Positions 4,450 through 64,000 of a DNA stretch of 64,000 nucleotides are shown here, piece after piece. The notes beneath the pieces are model-generated. The model saw only the letters and a list, made by a program, of their open reading frames with translations. It searched no databases and was not told where the DNA came from. The translations under genes and the position numbers were made by a program. Every line of letters begins with the position of its first letter. Position 1 is the stretch's first letter. This DNA comes from Chiua virens (Eukaryota; Basidiomycota; Agaricomycetes; Boletales; Boletaceae): the NCBI GenBank assembly GCA_019787685.1, contig JAHNUO010000057.1, positions 1-64,000 of the forward strand, written 5' to 3'.

Positions 4450-4997
4450 ATGTATTATAAGGCATTGTCAGAAAATCTGCGGTCTCGTGATAAATAGCAC
4501 CGCAGCCGCAAATGCTGTCTGCTGTGAAGACAACAACTTCGGTAAGTGATGGAAAGAATTCTTCTCTGTGTTTCATTGCCACCAGTACTCACCATTTTAC
4601 GGTAGGAGGCACCGTTGCCTTTGGCTGCGCCGCGCACAACTTCAACCCAGTCTCACCACGTGAAGTTTCGCCAGATTTGCCCCTCCCACCTCCACCTCCA
4701 CCTCCACCACCTCCACCACCACCACCACCACCACCACGGGCCCCTCCTCCCCCGCCTCCTCCCCCGCCGCCCCCGCCGCCGCCGCCGCCGCCGCCCCCGC
4801 CACCACCGCCTCCCCCACGGGCCCCACCTCCCCCGCCGCCTCCCCCGCCGCCGCCTCCCCCGCCGCCACCTCCCCCGCCGCCACCTCCCCCACGAGCCCC
4901 CCCTCCCCCTCCCCCGCCACCACCACCACCACCACCACCCCCACCTCCGCCTCCACCCCCGCCTCCGCCACCCCCGCCTCCTCCACCACACGCTTAA
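4450..4997 (+). pseudogene. hydrophobin C-terminal fragment fused to a polyproline tract
   Basis: Before and after a 64-nt intron (4542-4605) the frame reads NAVCCEDNNFGG|TVAFGC. The spacing CC-x12-C is that of the last cysteines of class I hydrophobins. The same splice position and downstream sequence occur in the secreted protein gene at 43.4 kb, so the two are related. No signal peptide or first five cysteines are visible upstream, so the 5' part appears lost or badly decayed. Instead of stopping after the last cysteine, the frame continues through NFNPVSPREVSPDLPLP into about 100 codons of nearly pure proline with occasional Arg-Ala, and stops at 4997. The tract is a (CCN)n microsatellite. 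Most likely a broken gene extended by repeat growth; a functional proline-rich protein is possible but unsupported. Confidence 0.55.
4682..4988. repeat. (CCN)n proline-coding microsatellite
   Basis: About 300 bp of CCA/CCT/CCG/CCC triplets, interrupted three times by a CGGGCC or CGAGCC (Arg-Ala) insert near 4738, 4818 and 4893. The complementary strand reads as Gly/Arg- or Gly/Val/Glu-rich frames, which are artefacts. Confidence 0.9.
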
Positions 4998-9574: not shown

Positions 9575-9944
9575 ATGCAGGTTGACGAGCATCAGAAAGA
9601 GATTCGGACGGTTCCGAATCCTTGTCATCGGCCGGGCCAACGCTGGCGAGATGACCCTTCTCAAGCAAATTTGTAACTCGACGGAGAATCCAGAGATCTA
9701 TGACGGAAAGGGAAGAAAGGTGCGTTTGGATGCTATCCTTGGATTTCTGATCTCGCTGGTGCACTGGTCGTCTCCAATCAGGTCGATCCGGCACAGATTC
9801 AAGAGTCTGCGGAGGTGAGTACCGGCGGGTTTACCATCGACCCTACACGGTGGTCACCATTTCACACGTCCGAAGCAGGGAGAACACAACATCGAGAACG
9901 AGATGATCTTTCGAAGCAATACTGGCTTCGTCTTTCACAACTCT
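9575..9944 (+). pseudogene. P-loop GTPase, broken copy
   Basis: Homologous to the GTPase gene at 19.95 kb. From its ATG this copy has one extra base within the first 15 codons, which shifts the frame. The intended frame resumes as RFRILVIGRANAG, but the Walker A lysine-threonine is changed (GKT to GEM). The match ends at FVFHNS, just where the other copy has the DSRG switch motif (Asp here is Asn). Unrelated sequence follows. Three independent lesions make it a pseudogene. Confidence 0.8.
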
Positions 9945-10800
9945 GTAACTTGGCCTTCTCCATGTCCATGCCTCGAGTCCGTGCTGCGCTCGACGCACGT
10001 TGACCCGCACCACCCTGGACTGGTATGCTGCCCAGCGGCGGTGGGGTCCCCGAGGGTGTCGTCGATCCAGAGCTCAAGGGTGCCGTCACGCTCGTCGTCC
10101 AAGAAGACGACGATGAGGGCCCAGTACTCCGAGTCGTCACCACCGTCCGAAATCCAGATTCGGTCCCGTTCTGCGTCGCCAAAGCGATGCTGCTCCCCGT
10201 ACTCGCAGCCCCACTCATAGTACTCGAGGTCGTACCTGTCACCGACCCCCGGGCCGCAGTGGCATTCCCAGACACGATCACGAAGTCAACCGAATAGATT
10301 ACCGTATCGGAGGGTAGTAGAGTATGCAAGCGGCAGCGTTGGAACGAGAAAAAGCAAACGACTCTGACATCCATCATCCATGTCACCCTAACACCATCCC
10401 ACATCTTGACGATCGAGATACGAGATCCAATCGACGAACCCATCACGCGCGCTGTGCTCCCCGGAAGGCATCGACTCGGCGCCGGTCCTCCACCTACCCC
10501 ACAATGCTAAATGCAATTCAAAGAACAGCAATTCAGCAGCGACCAAAGCATCACCCGCGACCCCCGAACAAGCCACGTCATCCATACCACGCTCATCAAT
10601 CAGAGACGAGAAACAGAGACACCTACTACTTCACTCCCGCTCCGAGTCTTACCACCCTCGCAGGGACCGTCACAGTCACCGAACGCGTCTTTGCCATGGG
10701 ATCCACCCCCGACGCAAGCTGCGCCAGGTACGTCTATCGCGTCGTCATCAAACACAAACATCAGCTCACATTACTTGAACGCTTGACACCGACTCACGTC
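9945..10800. other. unassigned high-GC segment with long open frames on both strands
   Basis: Frames are open on the plus strand (10025-10297, acidic and valine-rich) and on the minus strand (Ser/Thr/Gly-rich, 9862-10446). I could not decide which, if either, is coding. A third minus frame contains an acidic stretch with DDERDGTLELWIDDT that also looks protein-like. The segment sits where the second copy of the duplication carries the rest of the GTPase gene, so it is either replacement sequence or a different gene fragment. Confidence 0.35.
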
Positions 10801-13089: not shown

Positions 13090-15812
13090 CAGTACACTTT
13101 GTCAAAATGCATATGGTAGTAGAGCATAAATTACATATTGCATGGGTTTTCGGGTAATTCTACAAAGGTATGCGGGCAAAATCACACATTTTGCATAATG
13201 AATAATGCATGATGTCTGGATGTAGAATATGAAGTGTGAGATACCATATTTGCAGTACAGTTACCAGGTGAATGATGGGGATGAACCGGCTGGTAATATG
13301 CCGTCTTAACTGAGATGTACCATTGATGTTATACAATCTTACGGTACATTTGGGCACAAGTGAGTAGCAAATGAATATATATTGTAATGTACATGCTACA
13401 ATAGAGCCCATGGTTCGAAGAAATCTGATGAGAAGTCCAAGTCAGGCATAGCAGCTGCATTATGATTAACCATGCCAACCGTCACAAGCACATACTGTAC
13501 ACAGCAGCACCAGCTAAATATTTAAGAGTGGGGCTTGTTTTCTGAAAATTCATTTGCGTGTACACAATCATGCCCACTGAGCTACAGAGGCGCAAACCAC
13601 GACCAAAGCCTGCACCATACAATCGGAAACCACGAGACCCAGGGGGATTTCACCACAACAGCATGCCCAGGCCTGCCACCTCTGCAAAGCCTGTCAAATC
13701 CAATAACTCGAAGCGTGAAAACCTTACCTTACACGACTGGCTCACCGTCTTCGCATTCATTGACTCTCATCCAAATGTATCCCAAGAGCGCATTGTTGAA
13801 CACTTCAAGACACGACAAGAAGGTGCCTTAGAGTTCACGCAGTCAACCCTCTCACGAAAACTGAAGGATCGTGAACAACTAGAGAAACGTGTCGAGTCAC
13901 ATCCAAATGCATTGTCTAGCAAATGCCCTCGCATTGTCACCAGTCCGGAAGTCGAGAAGGCACTGTTGTTGTGGGTGCTGTCCATGCAGGAGAAGGGAGA
14001 AACGGTAAATGGGCCAATGCTACAGGAAAAGCGAAAGAGGTTTGAGGACGAGTTTGGAGTTCCAGAGGAGAGTAGACTTGCAGGTGCCGGATGGATTGCT
14101 CCATTCTGCAATGCCTACGGAATCAAAGAATATCGGAGACATGGAGAGGCTGGATCAGTTGACATTGAAGCTGTTGCGGCAGAGCGGGTACGAGTGCAAA
14201 AGATCTTGTCGACATTTCCGCTCAAGGATCGGTTTAACTTCGACGAAACTGGCTTCTTCGCCTTGTGCGTAAATTTATCCTTTAAGTCAGCATGAATACC
14301 ACTGACCAATTTGTAGCGCACCTCCTGATCGAGGGCTTGCAACAAAGCAGATGAGTGGAAAGAAAAAGGACAAGTTCCAGATTACCGTCAGACTTGCTAC
14401 GAATGCAGATGGGAGCGAAAAGCTACCATTGTTCTACATTGGTCGAGCAAAGAAACCGAGGGCTTTTGGTAACAAGACACCGCAGTCATGCAGATTCTAT
14501 TACCGTCACAACACGAACGCTTGGATGACAGCAGAACTATTCGAAGAGTAAGTGGTCTATACTCATAAGAGTGTTGCTGGCTTACAGAACTCAGGTGGGT
14601 TAAGATGCTTGATGTCAAGATGGGCGCCCAGCAGCGTTTCATTTGTCTTCTTATCGACAACTTCTCTGGACACATGATCGCCTACAAACCACGTCATATC
14701 CAGCTCGAGTATTTTGAGCCAAAGCTCACATCATTTGTCCAACCACTTGACGCCGGCATGATCCGATGCTTCAAAGCATTGTATCGTCGTGCATTTTGCA
14801 AACATGCAATAGACCTAGATGAGGCAGGTGAACGCGACGTCTACAAAATTGATATTCGAGAGGCAATGCTCATGGCAAAAGAAGCTTGGGATATGGTCAA
14901 GCCTGAAACCGTCCAACACTGTTGGAAACATACAGGAATCCAAGCTGATTCTGGCAATCCATCCCAGGCACCAACATCCCACCCAACTCACGCCGATCCG
15001 CAGGCCTGGAGTATCCTCCGCGATTTCGCTACAAATGATGGTTTCTCACTTCCGGCTGCCAAAACTCAACTCCAAGTACTCCTTGGGAGTTCATATGTAG
15101 ATGAGCATTGGAGGCCTGCTCTCAGGGCCGTCATGGATGCAGAAGGTGATGCTGCACAAGCATCAACGGTCATCGAGAAACTTGCTACCGCAGCTACCCA
15201 CCGGACTGGGCTCACAATAAAAATCCCTGCCTTGTCGCACCAATCTTCACAGCTCATAGCTGCTGAAAAAGACCTTGAAGATTCCATTCAGCATTTAAAG
15301 GATCTCAAGCAAATTCTTGGAATACCAATGTCTGTCGACGAGTTTCTTGCACCAAAGGGAGAAGCGGAAGTCGGGCAGAGGATGTATCAGTTTGAAGGTG
15401 ATGCAGCCATTGTTGCAGAGGTCCGGCACAGAATGGCTGTCGAGCGAGGTGAGATAATTGAGAACAACTCTGACGAAGAAGACGTCCAACCTACAGTGGC
15501 ACCTATGCCACGTTCCGAGATCATCCAGCTCTGCGAGAGACTTGAGAAAGGTTGTATGACACGAAGTAATGCGAGCACCTCTCTGGAGTTACTCCGTCAA
15601 CTTCGTATGCTTCGTGGGGCAATGCGCGGTGAGGAGTTGCAGAATGCGAAGCAAACGACGCTGAGCAGCTGTTGGGGCAAGTAGTATGCATGCGTCGACC
15701 GCGGAAATTGTCACAAAACTGTCACAAATGTCACAATGTAGTTTTACATATATCTTGTTTTGCATGAGGAAATGGCCGGCGCAACTCGCATGCGTTATGA
15801 CAAAGTGTACTG
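13090..15812 (+). mobile_element. complete pogo-like (Tc1/mariner superfamily) DNA transposon
   Basis: The element is bounded by inverted ends: left CAGTACACTTTGTCAAAATG, and the reverse complement of the right end begins CAGTACACTTTGTCATAACG (15 identical bases, about 22 of 26 matching). A TA lies directly outside each end (13088-13089 and 15813-15814), the expected target-site duplication. It is 2723 bp long and carries one transposase gene in the same orientation. Confidence 0.92.
13570..15684 (+). CDS. pogo-type DDE transposase with CENP-B-like DNA-binding half
   Basis: The gene has three or four exons. Exon 1 (from ATG 13570) encodes a basic N-terminus, a helix-turn-helix segment (NLTLHDWLTVFAFIDSHP... 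STLSRKL) and a second CENP-B-type domain (VEKALLLWVLSMQEKGE, GWIAPFCNAYGI). The DDE domain follows across introns near 14265-14316 and 14549-14602. The catalytic acids are D in NFDETGFF, D in LLIDNFSGH and D in QPLDAGMIRCFK. The C-terminus (to 15684) is a long acidic and helical extension with no known domain. It is likely a nuclear cut-and-paste transposase recognising the 26-bp ends of the surrounding element. No frame break was seen, so it may be active or recently active. Confidence 0.88.
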
Positions 15813-19000: not shown

Positions 19001-20295
19001 TATTTGTATCGCAGAATCCTCTTCAGACCGAGAGGAAATCTCTTGAATCTAAGCTCCGTCGGCTCTGAACATCCCACATTTTCCAGCGAATATTATCATG
19101 CGGCAATGTTGTTCCCCGACACTTTCTGCTACATCGGTTGAATCGGTTCTACCGCCACGGAGGTTCGCTGCCGAAAATATCAAGTTTCTTCCGTCGATCC
19201 TGGTCGTTTTGGCTTCCCTTGTTACTTTGTTTCCGCAATCAAAGAACCGCATGAAACCCTGATATAGGCGCAATCGTCGTGCTGAGCATCATGTCGACTT
19301 GTCTCCTTGAACCTCATTTCGTTGCTGCGCCACGGGCCAATCTGAACATCGTCATTGGTCATTTAGTTGAATGAGGCTACCCAGAGTACCTTCTCCCAGA
19401 TCTCAGCTAACGCCAGAAACGCCGAGTATGCTGGGGTAACAATGAAGTTCATGCTTCGGCTCGTGAGACAATCATCTTATTGATAGTCATGTATCTACTC
19501 TGTGTCTACGAATCGCATGACCAATCTTGTGGGACAAATCAGCCGTGAGAGCTACAACAACACGAAGGGCGTAGGAGGGACGGGTAAGCAAAATGGCTGG
19601 TATTATACACTGACGAGACGACGAGAAAAAGTGGATAAAAAAGAAAACAGAGTGTACACCTGGTGAGACGGCGATGAGAAGGCTGGAAGGAAAACCCAAC
19701 CCGTGTCCCCGTAATCAATCTCAGCAGGCCGGGCGGAGAAACAAGAAAGGAGATGGTGACCTTGACGAGGGCGAGGCGCAGGAGTTATCTAGCTCAACTG
19801 ATTAGCTTTGTGTAATCGATAACACAAACTTGGATGGGTTGTTGTGGGTTGTTGATACACGCTCTAACGAGCAAGTCGTGGGCTGTCTCTTGCGCTCTCA
19901 ACGCCATTCCTATCCATCAAGCCACCCGCTTCAATTCTTACTATCATGCAGATCGACGATATCAGACAGAAATTTGGACAGTTCCGAATCCTTGTTATCG
20001 GCCGGGCCAACGCTGGCAAGACGACACTTCTCAAGCAAATCTGTAATTCGAAGGAGAATCCAGAGATCTATGACGGAGAAGGGAAAAAGGTATGTTTGTA
20101 GGCCAACCTGGGGTTTCTGATCTCACAAGTGGATTGGTGGCCCGTGATCAGGTCGATCTGGCACAGATCGAAGAGTCTGCAGAGGTGAATACCAGGTTTA
20201 CCATCAATCCTCGTTATCACCACCTCACATGTCCCAAGCGGGGAGAACACAACATCGAGAACGAGATGGTCTTTCGAAGCAACCCCGGCTTTGTC
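17176..20295 (+). repeat. segmental duplication, block B (left half)
   Basis: Direct-orientation counterpart of 6745-9944. It includes the coiled-coil gene and the GTPase gene. Unlike block A, the GTPase gene continues uninterrupted past 20295. Confidence 0.8.
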
Positions 20296-21171
20296 TTCCA
20301 TGACTCCCGTGGGTTTGAAGCCGGTAGTGTCGACGAGTTTAACAAGATGAAGGACTTTGTCGCCGAGCGAGCTAAGACGAGATTCCTCAAGAAGCGTGTC
20401 CACGCTATATGGTAAACACACAGAGTCACTTATGGCGTGCTAACCACAACTGTTGGATAGGTACTGTATCCCGATGGATCAGATACACCGCGCTATCTTG
20501 ACCGCGGAGGAAATGTTTTTTGATGAATGTGAAACAGGAAATGGTAGGCTTTTCTTAAATGTCCATTCATTGTGTTGTTTATATTGTATTTTCGGGACAG
20601 TGCCTGTTGTGGTTGTGTTCACAAAATGTGATGCATTGCGAGTGTTGGCAGTGGCTGCCTTGACAGCCGAGGACAAGAAACTACCTGAACAGGAAAGACT
20701 TGCAAAGGTGAAGGAAGTCGAGGAAAGCATGGTAAAGAATAGTACAATTTGGGAAAGATTGCAAAAAAGGAAAAATCCCCCAAAAGTGTATGCTGAAGTC
20801 AAAGGTCTGTATGAAATTGGGGTTGATATACAGGTATCTCATTGTGTGAATTTTTTTGCAGATATGCAGAAGTGCAATGAAGGATGCAGGATTGTGCTAG
20901 AAAAGACTGCAGCTGCTTTGAATGATGAAAGTTTGGAAATGCTGTTTGTGACCACACAAAGTGCAAACATCATGCTTTGTGTGAAATATGCTGTTGACAG
21001 GTATGTGACCCTTTATTAATGTTCAGGAGTGTTTAGTGAATTACACATGATATATATCATAGAACCTTGATGCCATTCATTGCTGGCAAATTGTCTCCAG
21101 TAGGAAGATTGGATCAGCAAGAGCAAGAATCCTTGATGAGAAGAATGGGTATATGGTTCCCACATGTCAAT
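19946..21171 (+). CDS. P-loop GTPase (AIG1/TRAFAC-like), seven in-frame exons
   Basis: Exons 19946-20089, 20152-20184, 20239-20411, 20461-20543, 20601-20804, 20862-21000 and 21063-21171 join into exactly 295 codons without a stop. Motifs in order: Walker A/G1 GRANAGKTT (about residues 18-26), G3 DSRG after GFVFH, and G4 TKCD after VPVVVVF. A charged helical region (EQERLAKVKEVEES) follows and the last exon ends in GIWFPHVN. The G1-G3-G4 set defines a small GTP-binding protein of a type abundant in Agaricomycetes. Typical members end soon after a WFPH-like sequence. Here the last exon ends in phase 0 at AAT and is followed at once by donor GTAAGA and the single-codon exon array, so no stop codon is found at the expected place. 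All introns are 49-62 nt; the one at 20805 has a weak GTCTGT donor. Cellular role unknown; a signalling or immune-type role is inference. Confidence 0.85.
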
Positions 21172-21316
21172 GTAAGAAAGTGTGGAATTTGTATATGGAT
21201 GTGAAGTGCTTACAAATATTGGCAGGTAAGGAATGTGATCAAATTGAGAAATGGAGAGATTTTGATACATGTCCATTGGTGTTATGTCTGCTCTCACCAT
21301 GTTCTCTCATTCATAG
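21172..21316 (+). other. entry to the array: intron, AG|GT zero-length junction and founder-like intron
   Basis: After exon 7 a 54-nt intron (21172-21225) ends GGCAG and is followed directly by a new donor GTAAGG at 21226, with no exonic base between. The next 91 nt (21226-21316) end ACCATGTTCTCTCATTCATAG and are recognisably the array unit, with six extra bases and many substitutions in the first half. The AG|GT junction is the form of a recursive splice site. Alternatively 21172-21316 is removed as one 145-nt intron. Confidence 0.6.
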
Positions 21317-24300
21317 CAAGTAAGTGGTCTGACTGTTCTTGGAGGTCTCAGAGTGATTCTGATCCATGTCCATGTCTGCTCCCACCATGTTCTCTCATTC
21401 ATAGCCTGTAAGTGGTCTGACTGTTCTTGGAGGTCTCAGAGTGATTCTGATCCATGTCCATGTCTGCTCCCACCATGTTCTCTCATTCATAGGAAGTAAG
21501 TGGTCTGACTGTTCTTGGAGGTCTCAGGGTGATTCTGATCCATGTCCATGTCTGCTCCCACCATGTTCTCTCATTCATAGCGAGTAAGTGGTCTGACTGT
21601 TCTTGGAGGTCTCAGAGTGATTCTGATCCATGTCCATGTCTGCTCCCACCATGTTCTCTCATTCATAGCGAGTAAGTGGTCTGACTGTTCTTGGAGGTCT
21701 CAGAGTGATTCTGATCCATGTCCATGTCTGCTCCCACCATGTTCTCTCATTCATAGGAAGTAAGTGGTCTGACTGTTCTTGGAGGTCTGAGTGATTCTGA
21801 TCCATGTCCATGTCTGCTCCCACCATGTTCTCTCATTCATAGGAAGTAAGTGGTCTGACTGTTCTTGGAGGTCTCAGAGTGATTCTGATCCATGTCCATG
21901 TCTGCTCCCACCATGTTCTCTCATTCATAGCGAGTAAGTGGTCTGACTGTTCTTGGAGGTCTCAGAGTGATTCTGATCCATGTCCATGCCTGCTCCCACC
22001 ATGTTCTCTCATTCATAGGAAGTAAGTGGTCTGACTGTTCTTGGAGGTCTCAGAGTGATTCTGATCCATGTCCATGTCTGCTCCCACCATGTTCTCTCAT
22101 TCATAGGAAGTAGGTGGTCTGACTGTTCTTGGAGGTCTCAGAGTGATTCTGATCCATGTCCATGTCTGCTCCCACCATGTTCTCTCATTCATAGCGAGTA
22201 AGTGGTCTGACTGTTCTTGGAGGTCTCAGAGTGATTCTGATCCATGTCCATGTCTGCTCCCACCATGTTCTCTCATTCATAGTTTGTAAGTGGTCTGACT
22301 GTTCTTGGAGGTCTCAGAGTGATTCTGATCCATGTCCATGTCTGCTCCCACCATGTTCTCTCATTCATAGGAAGTAAGTGGTCTGACTGTTCTTGGAGGT
22401 CTCAGAGTGATTCTGATCCATGTCCATGTCTGCTCCCACCATGTTCTCTCATTCATAGCCTGTAAGTGGTCTGACTGTTCTTGGAGGTCTCAGAGTGATT
22501 CTGATCCATGTCCATGTCTGCTCCCACCATGTTCTCTCATTCATAGCCTGTAAGTGGTCTGACTGTTCTTGGAGGTCTCAGAGTGATTCTGATCCATGTC
22601 CATGTCTGCTCCCACCATGTTCTCTCATTCATAGTTTGTAAGTGGTCTGACTGTTCTTGGAGGTCTCAGAGTGATTCTGATCCATGTCCATGTCTGCTCC
22701 CACCATGTTCTCTCATTCATAGGAAGTAAGTGGTCTGACTGTTCTTGGAGGTCTCAGAGTGATTCTGATCCATGTCCATGTCTGCTCCCACCATGTTCTC
22801 TCATTCATAGTTTGTAAGTGGTCTGACTGTTCTTGGAGGTCTCAGAGTGATTCTGATCCATGTCCATGTCTGCTCCCACCATGTTCTCTCATTCATAGCC
22901 TGTAAGTGGTCTGACTGTTCTTGGAGGTCTCAGAGTGATTCTGATCCATGTCCATGTCTGCTCCCACCATGTTCTCTCATTCATAGGAAGTAAGTGGTCT
23001 GACTGTTCTTGGAGGTCTCAGAGTGATTCTGATCCATGTCCATGTCTGCTCCCACCATGTTCTCTCATTCATAGCGAGTAAGTGGTCTGACTGTTCTTGG
23101 AGGTCTCAGAGTGATTCTGATCCATGTCCATGTCTGCTCCCACCATGTTCTCTCATTCATAGCGAGTAAGTGGTCTGACTGTTCTTGGAGGTCTCAGAGT
23201 GATTCTGATCCATGTCCATGTCTGCTCCCACCATGTTCTCTCATTCATAGTTTGTAAGTGGTCTGACTGTTCTTGGAGGTCTCAGAGTGATTCTGATCCA
23301 TGTCCATGTCTGCTCCCACCATGTTCTCTCATTCATAGCCTGTAAGTGGTCTGACTGTTCTTGGAGGTCTCAGAGTGATTCTGATCCATGTCCATGTCTG
23401 CTCCCACCATGTTCTCTCATTCATAGTTTGTAAGTGGTCTGACTGTTCTTGGAGGTCTCAGAGTGATTCTGATCCATGTCCATGTCTGCTCCCACCATGT
23501 TCTCTCATTCATAGCCTGTAAGTGGTCTGACTGTTCTTGGAGGTCTCAGAGTGATTCTGATCCATGTCCATGTCTGCTCCCACCATGTTCTCTCATTCAT
23601 AGCAAGTAAGTGGTCTGACTGTTCTTGGAGGTCTCAGAGTGATTCTGATCCATGTCCATGTCTGCTCCCACCATGTTCTCTCATTCATAGTTTGTAAGTG
23701 GTCTGACTGTTCTTGGAGGTCTCAGAGTGATTCTGATCCATGTCCATGTCTGCTCCCACCATGTTCTCTCATTCATAGTCTGTAAGTGGTCTGACTGTTC
23801 TTGGAGGTCTTAGAGTGATTCTGATCCATGTCCATGTCTGCTCCCACCATGTTCTCTCATTCATAGTCTGTAAGTGGTCTGACTGTTCTTGGAGGTCTCA
23901 GAGTGATTCTGATCCATGTCCATGTCTGCTCCCACCATGTTCTCTCATTCATAGCGAGTAAGTGGTCTGACTGTTCTTGGAGGTCTCAGAGTGATTCTGA
24001 TCCATGTCCATGTCTGCTCCCACCATGTTCTCTCATTCATAGTTTGTAAGTGGTCTGACTGTTCTTGGAGGTCTCAGGGTGATTCTGATCCATGTCCATG
24101 TCTGCTCCCACCATGTTCTCTCATTCATAGCGAGTAAGTGGTCTGACTGTTCTTGGAGGTCTCAGAGTGATTCTGATCCATGACCATGTCTGCTCCCACC
24201 ATGTTCTCTCATTCATAGGCTGTAAGTGGTCTGACTGTTCTTGGAGATCTCAAACTGATTCTGATCCATGTCCATGTCTTCTCCCACCATGTTCTCTCAT

Positions 24301-24397
24301 TCATAGTCTGTAAGTGGCCAGACTATTCTTGGAGATCTCAGAATGATTCTGATCCATGTCCATGTCTGCTCCCACCATGTTCTCTCATTCATAGCTT
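21226..24397 (+). repeat. tandem array of 36 units: 85-nt intron plus 3-nt exon
   Basis: The period is 88 bp (first triplet 21317-21319, last 24395-24397; one unit lacks 2 bp near 21788). Each unit begins GTAAGTGGTCTGACTG, carries CTGATCC mid-unit as a possible branch site, and ends TTCTCTCATTCATAG. Three bases follow before the next GTAAGT. Those triplets are GAA (8), CGA (8), TTT (7), CCT (6), TCT (3), CAA (2), GCT (1) and CTT (1). In the incoming reading phase they are Glu, Arg, Phe, Pro, Ser, Gln, Ala and Leu codons; none is a stop. Up to unit 33 I count only about seven changes in all the 85-nt parts (21528, a 2-bp loss near 21788, 21989, 22113, 23811, 24078, 24183). Every acceptor is intact and 35 of 36 donors following a triplet are GTAAGT. 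Because 88 is not a multiple of three, unspliced units give no long frame. Confidence 0.95.
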
Positions 24398-24582
24398 GTA
24401 AGTCTTAGTTACAATTTATTGAATCCATCTTGTTCCCTTTAATATCCCTCAGGATGTAAGACATCTTTGAAGCCTTGTATGCAATAACATTGAATGCTCT
24501 TTCTGCTCCATTTCCATTTTCTAGCAGGTGAAACCTAATCATTCTCTTTTTTTACTTCATTTTCAACTTTATTTTCCAGGAG
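24398..24582 (+). other. three further single-codon exons between unrelated introns
   Basis: Past the array the same architecture continues with different intron sequence. Intron 24398-24452 (55 nt, ends CCCTCAG) is followed by GAT (24453-24455). Intron 24456-24524 (69 nt, GTAAGA...TTCTAG) is followed by CAG (24525-24527). Intron 24528-24579 (52 nt, GTGAAA...TTCCAG) is followed by GAG (24580-24582), then donor GTTTGT. Codons Asp, Gln, Glu keep the frame. The last two donors are weaker than GTAAGT, so this rests on pattern. Confidence 0.6.
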
Positions 24583-24637: not shown

Positions 24638-25161
24638 TTGCTACACTCTCCACAGGTTTTTTTATTTCTCAACTTATATTTAAATTTTGATTCTCACATT
24701 ATTTTTATATCAGGGCCAAGTTCCATATGGTGCCACAAAACACTCAACTTCCTCCAAATCAATGGTATGTGCACTATTTTCATGCTAGAACATTTCTCAT
24801 ATTACTTTGTATAATTCAGCTCCCATGGACCTTGAAACCATGGAAAAAAGTCCTTTTGTTGGGCATTGGTCAGTCTTGTTTGGTATCTCATTCCCACCCC
24901 TTCAATATCTGCATAGATTCTGCCATCATTATGGTGCACTCCTTCCATCTCCACCAGCAAGGTCATCCAGATTCAATTGCAACTACTGCCAAATTGTACA
25001 AATCATCTGGCACATGTGCCAAAGTTCAACAAGCAGTGACTCTGCTAGCTGATCAACACAATCCCAAGGATACAGAGGGGATGAAGATGGCAATCATGGA
25101 TCTGATTTCAAAGAATCTCATATGTGAGTCACACTTTTGTGCAACTGTGCAAGTTGATTAA
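24638..25161 (+). CDS. possible 3' exons of the GTPase-array gene
   Basis: After the last single-codon exon, intron 24583-24637 (ends CATATAG) can join to an 18-nt exon (24638-24655). Intron 24656-24713 then leads to exon 24714-24764 (GQVPYGATKHSTSS...), and intron 24765-24819 (55 nt, ATTCAG) to an exon from 24820. That last frame stays open to a stop at 25161 and contains TTAKLYKSSGTCAKVQQAV and NPKDTEGMKMAIMDLISKNL, which has a protein-like composition but no motif I know. All joins keep phase 0. The assignment to the GTPase gene is inference; an independent fragment is possible. Confidence 0.4.
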
Positions 25162-58915: not shown

Positions 58916-61900
58916 CTAGTATCGCACTACCTGCCGCGTCTCGCGTCTCCATCCAGTTTCAATGCAATCCACGAGTTCCTGAGATTCGAAAATTGTCCAA
59001 TGGTTTCCCGGCAAGTCAAGGACGGTGGCACGTGGGAATACTTGGCGTACACCAAGGTCATTGTTACGCCATAGCGCTCGCTCGGCACCATCGACAGAGA
59101 GTATGATACCCTCAGATGCGATGACCAACGTTACTGGAGCGCGAACAGGTTTCAGCCAAGCGATCAACAAGTCGCGTGCCACTGAGGGACAAAATGGTTG
59201 TTCCGAGGGGAACAAATCAAACAAAAACTCGTATGCAATGGTAATGATCTGCTTGAAGGTGCCTATGCACCGTTGCATGGACAACGAAGCAGGGCCGTCG
59301 TTGACAGCCATCTTGTAGTCTTCCACCGCCTCGGAGAAATAGGATGCTTGATCGTACATGGGAATCAGATCGTTCAGGATGCGGCGTACGACGTGTGGTG
59401 TCGCAGAGCGACGTTGAATCGACTCATCGTTGATGATCATCTTGTCAGTGACGAACAAGAGTGGAAAATGGTCTAGGACAATGAGCTGTACCACGTCGTC
59501 ACCATTTGTTTCCAATAGTTTGACGATAGCAAACAAGATGATGGAGGTCCCAGAGTATCCCCCGAGACGATATGGACCACGTGGCTGGTGAGCCTTTATT
59601 TCGTTGTAATACCACCGTGAGATGGTGTCGATGGAATTGAACGGTGCTCCAGAGGAGACCCTCAGTGCCCAGAAAGCCGTTGTGAACATGCGGACGAACG
59701 GGATGAAGACGTCTATCTCTCCCCATCCGCCATGTAAAAGGATGAACGGCGGGTCATCCTTGTCCACAAACTTCACCAATACACGGTCACCCCTTTGAAT
59801 CGTCTCCAGCGTCCATTGCTCGTCTTCCCCCGTCTCGTACTCAAGGGTGGAGAGTGGCCCACGGGAAAGTTTCCCTTCAAGATCGGCTAGTGTGCTTTCC
59901 CCAAGCAACTGGATAGATGATACGGTGACATACGGCCGGAGAGCAACAGATAGTTGACCGGCCGAAAGGGAGTCCAAACCATATGATGTCAACGGGACAC
60001 CGGGCAACAATTCTGCAACGTCGAGGCCAAGACAGCGAGACACGATGCGACACAGAGCATTGACGGGATCTCCCTCTACACTCTTTGCAAGGCTGCGGCG
60101 TTCGCGCACAAGATGGCCATACAAATGAGAGAACCCCATGTGATGCTGCACTTGATCCCAATCGAAGTTAGGAATATACACATCGAACGATCCGTCCTTG
60201 AGTTTATGAAGGCCGTCTTCGATATAGTCACAAAGCTCTACGTGCAGAAGTGCATTCAGCAGTCATTCGGATGTGTGGACCGAACATGGACTTACCTCTC
60301 GCGGTGAATGCCCATGGAATCAGATGCTTGAAGTGATCGACATGGCGGGAAGAGCTGAGCTTCTTCCCAGTGATTGATGCAGTATCGATTATGGCGGGTG
60401 CAACGATGGCGAACGCGTTTGCGTACTTGCGCATCTCACCTTCTAGCGCCGTATTAGCGCTGTAAACGATCGATCAGAACACATTAGGGATGAGTGGTGG
60501 ATGTATACCTTGCGTAATTGGTCTGACCGATGTTTCCGAAAGTCGAAACAGACGAAAATGCAATGACAAAGTCGAGTTCTTGGAGTGGAAGACATTGTTC
60601 TAGTGCTCTGAAAGCATGGATCTTTGGTACGTGACATGCGGTAAAATTTGCCTCCGTCTGATCAAAGAAACTCGCATCAGAAAGAACTGCAGCAAGGAGC
60701 ATGCAGCCAGCTATTCTGTGAGATATTCCTGAAAAGACATCTAGGAGCGCATCCTTCGAGGAGGCATCCGTAGCGTGTAAGGTCAGCGTGAGATCGGGTC
60801 TGGATTCCAAGTAGTGAAGCATCCGCGTCGCAAGTTTGTCCCCAGCCTGTCTCAGCGAATCTCGCCCAGAACGAGAAGTTAGGACTAGATGACGAGCACC
60901 TCTCTAGTGAATGCATTAGTCACAGAGACAAAAGTTTTATTTTACACTTACATCGTACATCCATACAGATATATGCAAACCCAAGCTCCCTACGCCGCCG
61001 AGGAGTACATAAACCTCGTCGGGTTTAAAGAGCATGTCTGGAATGGCTGGTTGCGGGTACGAACTCAAAGAAGGCCGTGTCAGTATGGGTCCTGCAATCT
61101 CCCATTCTATAGTCGCCACATTATCCACCGAGAATCGGAGTATCTCTGAAACTAGTTGAGGCTCGTACAGAATGCATCGCCTTGCGTCATGGCATTCGTT
61201 CCAGTAAATGTACCGAGCAGGGCCCGGAGCAACTGTGGAAAGGATGGAATCTTCCTTTGGGCGATGGGAAACCAGGACATCATCTGCAGTCAATCGGAGC
61301 TTCAAAACATCGACCGGGGAGGCAGTCGATAGAAGACGATGGGGTGATACTCCACACATAGTGAACGCTTGAAACATCATTTTTCCGCGATCCAATTCCG
61401 CGCCTTCCAGGATCACGCGGTACGGAAAGTCACTCGCTCCGGCGCTGAGATAACGCGAGCCGAGGATAGACCCAGCGATCAAGCAGGCCGGCAAGACCTC
61501 GCACAAAAGCTCCAGGTTTACATTATTGCATCCGAGCTGATGGATCGCGGTTTTATGCACCACGACTCTTGTAGCTGCGGCATTGGCGTCCTCAATGTAT
61601 GCGACGGTGGCCACCAAGCTTGCTCCTGGGTCCTTTTCCTCAGGACATTCAGCATTCATGACGCAACCAATTACGCCATGTAAGCCGCCAGCGAATGGTT
61701 TGCTGATTAGGACTGAGATTTCTACGTGATTCGGAGAGGGAAGACACGCCGTCGCCGGCGAGTACATAGAGTAGGATATTGAAGAGGGCCCTGGAAGCTC
61801 GACAATCCGGGGGACTAATACCTCCAACCCCGCCGTGACGACGAGCTCCGGTTCGATCCCAGCGATGCCAGATAGTTGCTGAACCACTCTAACTTGTTCT

Positions 61901-64000
61901 TCTTCGGGACCTGCTTGCATAAACGTGATCTGAGTGATGTCCCAAAGTGGGAATTCGCATCTGAGGGACTTTATCAAGCCACGAGCCCCATCAGAATCCG
62001 ATCCCAGGAACGTAATAATCCAAAGCTCGGCCGTGCGGTTGATGTCTAGGTTTCGGAGTGCATCTTGGATGTCTATTTCAAAAAACAGCGAGTAACGCAG
62101 AATTCGCATTTGATGTGGGCGTACGCGATCGATTCTTGAAAGAGAAAGGCAAGGCATCTGGCTCAAAACAACTTCGAGAAGTCTCTCCTTCAAAGAACAC
62201 CTGAGGATGACGGATCGGATGTTCGGAAGAAAACGGCTGTAGGGAGGGTCTACAGGGCTGGAGGACTCTTGGATTGACGTACTGGCGTCTTGCACGAGCA
62301 CGAGTGCACCGCCGGGAAGGAGGAGGGTGTATAGTTTTTCTATTTGGGAGTGGTGGAGATGCGCTCTAGAGAATGGGTTAAACGCCACGAGGTCAAATCC
62401 CAAGCTTCTTCCGAGGCCTTTGCCAACGAGTTCCACGAGGTTTCGGTGGGAAATCGGTCGGAAAGATGGGGGTAAAGTGTCTGTCGGTGGTGTTGCTGCA
62501 GCCGTACTGTAGAATACCTGTAACGAAATACCGCGGTTCTTGATTCTGGACAATGATCGGAGCAAGAATTCGTGTTCTAAGGAGACATGAAATATCCGGA
62601 TTGGAAACGTTCGAAGACCACTGACCATCATCGATCACAAGAGCCCGGATGACCCTTTTCCCACATATCTCAGTCGCATGATTGACGACAGCCAGGCATA
62701 GGCGAGTAAGACACTACGACTGCGTTGAGTGTCTTATAATGAATCGGAATGGACTACGTCTCACGTGTTCGTAGTGCACAAGATTCAAGTCCCCGTAAAG
62801 AGGTTCTACCTGCGGGTCACATGGGGCACGTGAATTAACATTTGCTGAAGGTTGGAGGCCACATGTCTCATTGCTTCGGTTGAAGAAGGTTGCTTGCTCA
62901 GTGGTCCGGAGCGTAGAGAAATCGATTGGGGATGGTATTCCGAAAGACTGATGGATTACTCCGTACCTTGAGCTCACACCCTTCACGGGTACAAGTAAAT
63001 GTCGCTGCACGGTGAATCTATTCAACGAGCATATCCATTTACCATCTGGTGTCATTATGTTCAAATCGCTGACAATGCTATCTGAGAGAGCGGTTGAATC
63101 CTCATTCGATATTCATGAGCTACAAGACTATAGGACTCACCAGGTAGCCACCGTATTATCGTCGCATGAACACACAGACTCTCGAAAGCGTGATGCGCAC
63201 GGTCTCCATCGAACAGCTCAATGCTTTCCAAATGTGAAGGTAGGTAATATGCATTCGGATCAGCATCCAAAGTATAGGAAACGTGGACCAGCACGTGAAA
63301 GCAGGCATCGAGGACCGCCGGGTGAATGATATATTGCCCTGATCTGTCAAGTCAATAGGCTGAGGATATGTTGGTACTGATGATCGTGGAAAGGGGTGGC
63401 AAACCTTGGTAAATCCTCCGAGTTTCCTCTGACCTCGACCACAGCTTCATTGTTGCCAACATAGACTCGCCTAACCCTGCGGAAATAGGGTCCATACTGA
63501 GCAAAGTACTGCAAATCTGCATAAAAGTCTATCATCCTCATCAGCAGAGGTTAAAACAAGTGGGAGGAGAGCCAACCCACTCTCCGACGATGTGTCTAGG
63601 AGCTGGCATCGTTGAATCACTTCATTGATATTTGTCACTGCATGGGGCAAGCAGGGGTCCGTACTCATGAACCCATTTACATGCGTATGTTTATGATCGG
63701 TAGTGACCTAGAGCGGTAATGGGAACGTTTCAGAACACGATATTGGAGCTCCATACCTCAACTTTGCTCGAAGGTGCCACAGACCGCTGCGACTCCACGG
63801 ACCATTGATGTCCATCAATCCTTAGATCGACGGGTATTGGGTCCTCGGCCGCAAGCGAAAGAATATTGACAAAGTTCACATTCCATAAGGTTCGCGCGCC
63901 AGCTTCAAATACCTGTGGAGAGTCGAGATCTGCCTCATCATACTGTACGTTTCAGGACCCACCATCTCCAGAAACCCTGCGGCTGCCATTATTGGCTCTT
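58916..64000 (-). CDS. reducing type I polyketide synthase, 3' part (DH-MT(degenerate)-KR-ACP-TE)
   Basis: The gene runs leftward; its 5' end (KS, AT and the start of DH) lies beyond the right edge. DH: VFEAGARTLWNVNFVNIL (about 63900) and HPAVLDACFHVLVHVSYTLD (about 63270), ending GKWICSLNRFTVQRH. MT-like region (62700-62280): GKRVIRALVIDDG in place of the SAM-binding GxG motif, then GFDLVAFNPFSRAHLHHSQI and LLLPGGALVLVQDAS, so methylation is unlikely. A long spacer (62280-61100) is ER- or structural-KR-like but has no clear NADPH motif. KR: VLLGGVGSLGLHI (nucleotide binding), then FSSVSTFGNIGQTNYA with catalytic Ser and Tyr. ACP: GLDSLSAG with the phosphopantetheine serine (about 60000). 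TE: GYSGTSI nucleophile and GNHWTIFES His, stop at 58916. It would build and release a partly reduced polyketide in the cytosol; product unknown. Introns are short, for example near 62630 and 60950. Confidence 0.88.

Follow-up and report, generated by a model that had tools for sequence, protein, structure and literature searches.

The 64,000-nucleotide stretch analysed here (the window: positions 1 to 64,000, forward strand, of contig JAHNUO010000057.1 from the bolete Chiua virens, assembly GCA_019787685.1) contains a P-loop GTPase gene interrupted by an array of 36 predicted exons of one codon each, separated by near-identical introns. We consider it highly probable that these single-codon exons are spliced and translated, and that they encode a fast-changing linker. 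The initial annotation of the window had read the array as specifying one residue per exon, and that core reading is supported by the exact exon length of 3 nt, the avoidance of stop codons, entry into the array in phase 0, the conservation of the splice sites, donor substitutions that are plausible in 22 of 23 cases, and a matching linker in four of seven transcript-like relatives. Splicing itself we infer from these features.

Anatomy of the array

The 36 triplets of the window array (the first at 21317, the last at 24395-24397, forward strand) are of eight kinds: GAA (8), CGA (8), TTT (7), CCT (6), TCT (3), CAA (2), GCT (1) and CTT (1). Of the 35 introns between them, 26 have the identical sequence; units 1-33 carry six substitutions and one 2-nt deletion in total, and the last two units 4 and 5 substitutions. 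The introns open with GTAAGT (GTAGGT in one) and close with CATTCATAG, and the intron ahead of the first triplet, which starts at 21226 and measures 91 nt, is related to the array introns but has diverged from them. Tandem Repeats Finder (TRF) reported a period of 88 with 35.5 copies. The array of 36 single-codon exons described in the initial annotation is thus confirmed and had, if anything, been understated.

Variation is concentrated in the triplets, in line with the earlier claim: the pairwise diversity per base is 0.646 for exon and 0.0103 for intron positions, calculated for a chain that includes the next site, GAT, and hence comprises 37 units of nine kinds, 34 of them at the modal length. 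None of the 36 triplets is a stop codon in phase 0, the phase delivered by the upstream exon (exon 6), as the initial annotation had stated. Phase 1 of the window array is likewise free of stops, and phase 2 contains them. Just before the array, at 21223-21231, an acceptor is joined directly to a donor (cag/GTAAGG), which could possibly represent a zero-length exon or a ratchet site. An Rfam and tRNA scan of the 64-kb window returned no matches.

A genome-wide system in one GTPase family

A genome-wide search for AG-NNN-GTAAGT had been suggested to establish whether the array belongs to a system. The pattern CATTCATAG-NNN-GTAAGT has 1323 matches in the 48.3-Mb genome and its reversed control has none, which excludes chance and identifies a system. 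The pattern with 2, 4 or 6 bases in place of the 3 has no match in the genome. A scan of viral contigs with the beginning of the intron gave single matches in 14 stretches, none of them an array.

The GTPase query, which still contained the 54 nt at 20185-20238, returned 265 genome matches. Clustering of the matches listed yields about 70 separate GTPase loci, most of which follow the single-codon-exon plan; 27 stretches were read at array length and 13 more loci in part, L065, taken from the wrong side of its gene, being excluded. Unit placement is based on the CGA and TGG units in full and on nine listed array places, the remaining pattern matches being counted only. Each of the 87 CGA units and 19 TGG units has a GTPase match on its own strand no more than 7.4 kb upstream, and together these units occupy 34 loci. 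Of the nine array places among the pattern matches listed, eight adjoin a GTPase match; the other one (contig C3, locus L049) precedes a C-terminal domain. The sample for arrays and splice sites consists of the window and 26 further loci (L039-L064), of which L049-L053 were picked for known array units and the others by their GTPase match. An array of at least eight units is present in 22 of these 27 loci. The longest array seen, at L039, has about 75 single-codon exons over 7 kb and is rich in Q, L, E and R.

Splice-site conservation

Across the 27 loci, GTAAGT follows exactly 3 nt after 414 of 437 occurrences of CATTCATAG, and the other 23 have no GTAAGT within 40 nt. Of those 23, 22 carry GTAGGT, GTGAGT, GTATGT, GTAAGG, GTAAGC or GCAAGT at the 3-nt position, and one carries ATAAGT (L063); GC-AG introns are a known working class. 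At junctions between neighbouring matches to an intron-core profile, AG-NNN-G[TC]R is found in 499 of 501 cases, a figure that carries some bias, as the profile was trained on units found via their splice sites. The old arrays of L039, L040, L047 and L052, with intron diversities of 0.12-0.21, have the same anatomy as the young ones. The splice sites of the arrays are under selection.

The triplets behave as codons

Genome-wide, 4 of the 1323 triplets are stops, all of them TGA, and CGA, which is one transition away from TGA, occurs in 87 units. The 589 triplets of 22 loci include 3 stops, where base composition, taken array by array, predicts 48.2; the lowest count in 2000 permutations was 34. 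The fourth TGA triplet of the genome lies at G000 C8:1529933.

The exon upstream of the arrays ends in a motif, WFPHxx. Among 38 loci given, 26 have this motif, and in 25 of these the first donor after it is in phase 0. At L047 no donor was found within reach of the motif, and motif matches away from the arrays in L043 and L062 likewise lack one. The gene is in phase 0 at both ends of the array.

Hypervariable codons and constant introns

Eleven homogenised arrays show mean pairwise differences of 0.64, 0.62 and 0.47 at exon bases 1, 2 and 3, compared with 0.006-0.025 in intron segments, the introns being about 98% alike; variants are not spread over the whole unit, as they would be in an ordinary minisatellite. 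Intron diversity in these arrays shows no rise towards the exon (0.0158 at bases 7-16, 0.0164 further inward, and 0.0056 to 0.0251 before the acceptor). We therefore rejected a diversity tied to the exon edge, for which a rise towards the exon would be expected. At L056, 28 triplets of nine kinds are embedded in 26 introns of one single sequence.

Comparison of five paralogues gave a similar picture. Their upstream 1270 bases are 97.4-99.1% identical and their array introns 98-99.5% identical, and their first codons agree at 26 of 100 positions over ten pairs, with 15.9 expected by chance (the pairs are non-independent). About three quarters of the codons thus differ between genes that differ by 1-3% elsewhere.

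The initial annotation had proposed that residues could be permuted by unequal exchange, for which we found no support. In 10 paralogous arrays, five of them covered at the first 7-12 codons only, the numbers of shared codon words are close to or below those in shuffled arrays (114 versus 108.1 for two codons, 11 versus 18.3 for three and 1 versus 2.4 for four), and adjacent identical codons are not in excess (114 versus 107 expected). Block-wise unequal exchange as the source of the codon order was therefore rejected. Stepwise point mutation as the sole source was rejected as well: among 58 codons that differ at equal positions of near-identical paralogues, 40 show changes at two or three bases (mean 1.79, versus 1.96 for random positions; of the seven pairs counted, L029-L028 was not in register throughout), a result more in line with replacement from a pool. 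Taken together, the lack of shared words and the multi-base differences suggest that exchange of single units accounts for the data better than blocks or stepwise mutation alone.

The arrays draw on a narrow set of codons. For 708 triplets at 32 loci, the probability that a pair of units from the same array specifies different residues is 0.83, and the probability that units for the same residue use different codons is 0.064; for homogenised arrays, the latter value is 0.023 (16 of 695 pairs). Leu is encoded by CTT in 95 of 102 cases, Glu by GAA in 82 of 84, Tyr by TAT in 80 of 81, Asp by GAT in 57 of 57 and Phe by TTT in 47 of 47. The third base is A or T in 95% of the array triplets and the first base is rarely A; exons 1-4 of the window GTPase use all four third bases about evenly. 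An NAG triplet would offer a competing acceptor and may account for part of the A/T bias at the third base, though not for the lack of NNC.

The host gene

The window protein scores 25.1 bits against the Pfam family MMR_HSR1 (PF01926), above the curated cut-off of 21.9, and its relative P0004 scores 21.8 bits, just under it. A comparison with solved structures gave weak P-loop matches only, the best with an E value of 8e-4 (GTPase Der, Arl3). The 54 nt at 20185-20238 are absent from homologues and are probably an intron.

A conserved C-terminal domain starts right after the array and shares 42% identity with that of P0004 over 103 columns (E 2e-23); the domain was detected in 19 of the 27 loci. 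The array thus lies between two conserved parts of one gene and encodes an internal linker, and the "tail" postulated in the initial annotation was not borne out. On the best reading of the sequence, the linker of the window gene is predicted to be QPERREEREERFEPPFEFPERRFPFPQFSSRFRASL, a low-complexity segment between the GTPase domain and the C-terminal domain. In P0121, a protein that has the linker and the C-terminal domain but no N-terminus, Pfam detected no domain, and a search with the linker and C-terminal domain of P0034 (its residues 260-446) retrieved P0034 and P0023 only.

Features of the array-bearing GTPase gene in the window, with the evidence for each.
Feature	Position	Strand	Evidence
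GTPase exon 1, P-loop GRANAGKT	19946..20089	+	GTPase query, Pfam, sequence
GTPase exon 2a; homologues P0001 and P0002 lack the next 54 nt	20152..20184	+	Homologue comparison
GTPase exon 2b, HDSRGFE switch region	20239..20411	+	Homologue comparison
GTPase exon 3	20461..20543	+	GTPase query
GTPase exon 4, TKCD motif	20601..20804	+	GTPase query
GTPase exon 5	20862..21000	+	GTPase query
Exon 6, ending in WFPHVN in phase 0	21063..21171	+	Motif and donor phase
Entry intron(s): 54 nt ending in cag, then 91-nt diverged relative of the array intron	21172..21316	+	Sequence
Array: 36 single-codon exons and 35 introns of 85 nt (one of 83 nt)	21317..24397	+	TRF, unit listing, sequence
Further diverged single-codon exon GAT, AG-GAT-GTAAGA (likely)	24453..24455	+	Sequence
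Candidate single-codon exon CAG, weak donor GTGAAA (tentative)	24525..24527	+	Sequence only
Candidate single-codon exon GAG, weak donor GTTTGT (tentative)	24580..24582	+	Sequence only
Exon GQVPYGATKHSTSSKSM after the array, phase 0	24714..24764	+	Alignment
C-terminal domain, exon a	24820..24868	+	Alignment
C-terminal domain, exon b, including the stop codon	24917..25161	+	Alignment

About 10 kb upstream of this gene, an open frame at 9819-10220 on the forward strand contains KQGEHNIENEMIFRSNTGFVFHNS and resembles the disrupted remnant of a further member of this GTPase family. Elsewhere in the window, two open frames at 13546-15684 on the forward strand resemble a pogo/Tigger-type transposase (CENP-B-like and DDE regions), and long open frames at 58916-62634 on the reverse strand resemble a section of a polyketide synthase, with its reductase, carrier and thioesterase regions. 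A CCACC-type repeat at 4680-4989 is open in several frames.

Relatives and transcript-like proteins

A search with the product of the window gene returned 1533 homologues, the best listed protein being 88% identical over 88% of the query. Among the best 120, all named entries are from boletes and their kin, which we take to represent the order Boletales; the jgi entries carry no species. Seven of the homologues are transcript-like: they come from contigs of 1.1-1.9 kb and have a single open frame that spans the places where the window gene has introns, and they probably derive from spliced RNA. These seven proteins, as well as eleven gene models, were hand-picked for having a linker; other proteins from short contigs end at or soon after WFPH.

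We compared the first 30 linker residues of each protein with every window of its own body for fit to the composition of the arrays. In four of the seven transcript-like proteins (P0121, P0034, P0086 and P0071), no window of the body matches the arrays as well as the stretch after WFPH does, and the linkers of P0023 and P0127 rank within the top 3%. None of the eleven genome gene models beats all of its own windows (P0106 comes nearest, at 1.2%). The residues V[RSGK] directly follow WFPHxx in 42 of 90 motif-bearing proteins among 156 fetched, against a background of 1.3%, as expected if gene models run into a GTAAG-type donor and miss the next exon. P0071 and P0017 end in EVSFF and GAGVSCALWHMAEKW, respectively. 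Both ends can be read as codons already joined by splicing with an unspliced intron behind them, which would be consistent with intron removal from the 5' side.

Proposed mechanism

We propose that each unit would be a complete short spliceosomal intron together with a one-codon exon in phase 0. At each codon, acceptor and donor are separated by 3 nt, presumably too little for recognition across the exon, and recognition would instead take place across the intron. The introns would probably leave successively from the 5' side, so that every removal adds a codon to the growing upstream exon and places the next GTAAGT beside it. As for evolution, the data are best matched by a pool of units that short conversion tracts pass around, both inside one gene and between genes; the introns would be homogenised, and the diversity of the codons would be kept by selection. 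The linker may have a role in recognition or signalling.

The arrays may also be part of a dedicated system of codon-level diversification, in which a small alphabet of codon cassettes set between constant introns would be rewritten in a targeted manner, so rapidly that genes of 97-99% identity share a mere quarter of their codons, the introns would serve as a scaffold for recombination or targeting that is invisible in the protein, and the GTPases would act as individual labels for recognition of self and non-self or of symbionts. We regard this more far-reaching proposal as tentative and rather doubtful.

Several observations weigh against the spliced and translated linker. The arrays of Chiua virens are known from DNA alone, the transcript-like proteins coming from relatives, and the closest transcript-like relative, P0004, fails the composition test (19% of its body windows fit as well). 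Five of the 27 loci (L041, L048, L049, L057 and L062) are without an array of at least eight units, although some of these stretches are incomplete and L049 holds a few units only; L041 has the C-terminal domain and no array, and is perhaps an array-free member of the family. Stops occur in two arrays, one in L050 and two in L063, the latter of which, with its broken donor in addition, may be a decaying gene. By phase, the stops number 3 of 649 in phase 0, 1 of 606 in phase 1 and 80 of 606 in phase 2. Stops are no commoner in phase 1 than in phase 0 because a T at base 2 nearly always precedes a T, and raw counts therefore rule out phase 2 only, the choice of phase 0 being decided by the upstream exon. 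Near-identical paralogues retain a weak codon order, with a gapped-alignment sum reached by 8 of 300 shuffles, mainly via two pairs. Finally, the near-absence of synonymous variants (16 of 695 pairs) fits a mutational or splicing constraint equally as well as selection on residues.

Alternative explanations

The alternative that survives best would add to the spliced linker rather than replace it. All exons are whole codons, so that skipping would keep the frame and a variety of isoforms would be possible; with equivalent sites throughout, variable subsets of exons could be joined and each gene could produce many linkers. The symmetry of the exons and their near-identical splice sites speak for such an isoform generator, and the micro-exon genes of Schistosoma vary by exon skipping (PMC4015677). 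A rapid change of codons in the DNA would be less needed, however, if isoforms supplied the variety. Short fungal introns are moreover usually spliced by intron definition, which favours neighbouring sites. We consider this possible, on balance unlikely.

A minisatellite within one large intron, removed whole and with meaningless triplets, is far less probable. It would explain the tandem period of 88 and the very high identity; phase 0 on both sides means that removal of the whole array keeps the frame, and this alternative is also favoured by the array being known in Chiua virens from DNA alone. Yet it leaves unexplained why the variation sits in the exon bases, why only 4 of 1323 triplets are stops and the spacing is never 2, 4 or 6 nt, why splice sites are kept where intron diversity reaches 0.12-0.21, and why a clearly matching linker lies at the same place in four of the seven transcript-like relatives.

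Invasion by introns is just as improbable. Here, introner-like copies of one intron would have split a continuous linker after each codon, so that the introns are copies and the codons are old. The identical introns around unrelated codons in L056 are what such a process would leave behind, and introners do occur in fungi (PMC4457414, PMC9860276). An insertion would however be needed after every codon and always in phase 0, and no two-codon exon of the pattern exists in the genome; the codons are not old, as paralogues of 97-99% identity differ in about three quarters of them; and the 106 fully listed units and nine array places are all in one gene family, not scattered. An assembly or sequencing artefact, which tandem repeats often provoke through misassembly, is hardly credible in view of the many contigs, the several array types and unit lengths, the old diverged arrays and the intact flanking exons.

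Implications and comparison with known systems

If the codons are spliced and translated, a region of the protein is set one residue per exon, at the limit of recognition by the spliceosome and in dozens of genes of one genome. The arrays would then be a natural setting in which to test whether splicing proceeds sequentially through exons of 3 nt, and would show introns acting as a scaffold for rapid protein diversification. They would also explain why many gene models of a large family in Boletales end after the same motif. Gene finders and RNA aligners may overlook exons of 3 nt. Among the matches listed in open-licence literature, judged by titles and the beginnings of abstracts, there was no description of tandem or single-codon exons. 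The combination of tandem one-codon exons, constant introns and hypervariable codons is not known from the systems compared below.

The nearest system in plan is that of the micro-exon genes (MEGs) of Schistosoma mansoni, for which the primary paper is reportedly that of DeMarco in 2010; homogenised introns with hypervariability restricted to the exons are, to our knowledge, not known from them. MEG exons are longer than one codon, whereas the array exons are exactly 3 nt. MEGs are rows of very small symmetrical exons whose removal is neutral to the frame and is considered a source of protein variety (PMC4015677). The array shares with them the series of small symmetrical exons. MEG products appear secreted, whereas the host gene here is a P-loop GTPase.

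In size, isolated tiny exons come nearest. Examples are a 3-bp exon in Drosophila homothorax (PMC7392893), a 1-nt exon in Fusarium CYP621A (PMC12940212), small microexons in plants (PMC8831610) and a microexon in Trichoderma Xlr2 (PMC11121469). The exons of the array fall within the size of microexons (at most 30 nt, bounded by splice sites), with 3 nt between AG and GTAAGT 1323 times. The likeness is that tiny exons can be spliced, filamentous fungi included; the difference is that these microexons are, as far as described, single exons in otherwise ordinary genes, whereas dozens with hypervariable codons form an array here.

Introners are the nearest in their near-identical introns, which, as in the arrays, are multiplied within one genome (PMC4457414, PMC9860276). 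They insert into numerous genes throughout a genome, and target-site duplications accompany some of them, whereas the introns here are tandem, at a fixed spacing of 3 nt and in one gene family. Dispersal into unrelated genes was not observed: 87 of 87 CGA units, 19 of 19 TGG units and nine of nine array places among the matches listed lie in the GTPase family.

A further comparison is with coding minisatellites and high-identity repeat arrays in fungal recognition genes, which consist of tandem units with concerted evolution and few variable sites. The arrays described here resemble them in their tandem units, their concerted evolution and the concentration of variation on few sites. In fungal coding minisatellites the unit is exonic, whereas here 85 of the 88 bases are intron and each unit contributes one codon to the protein.

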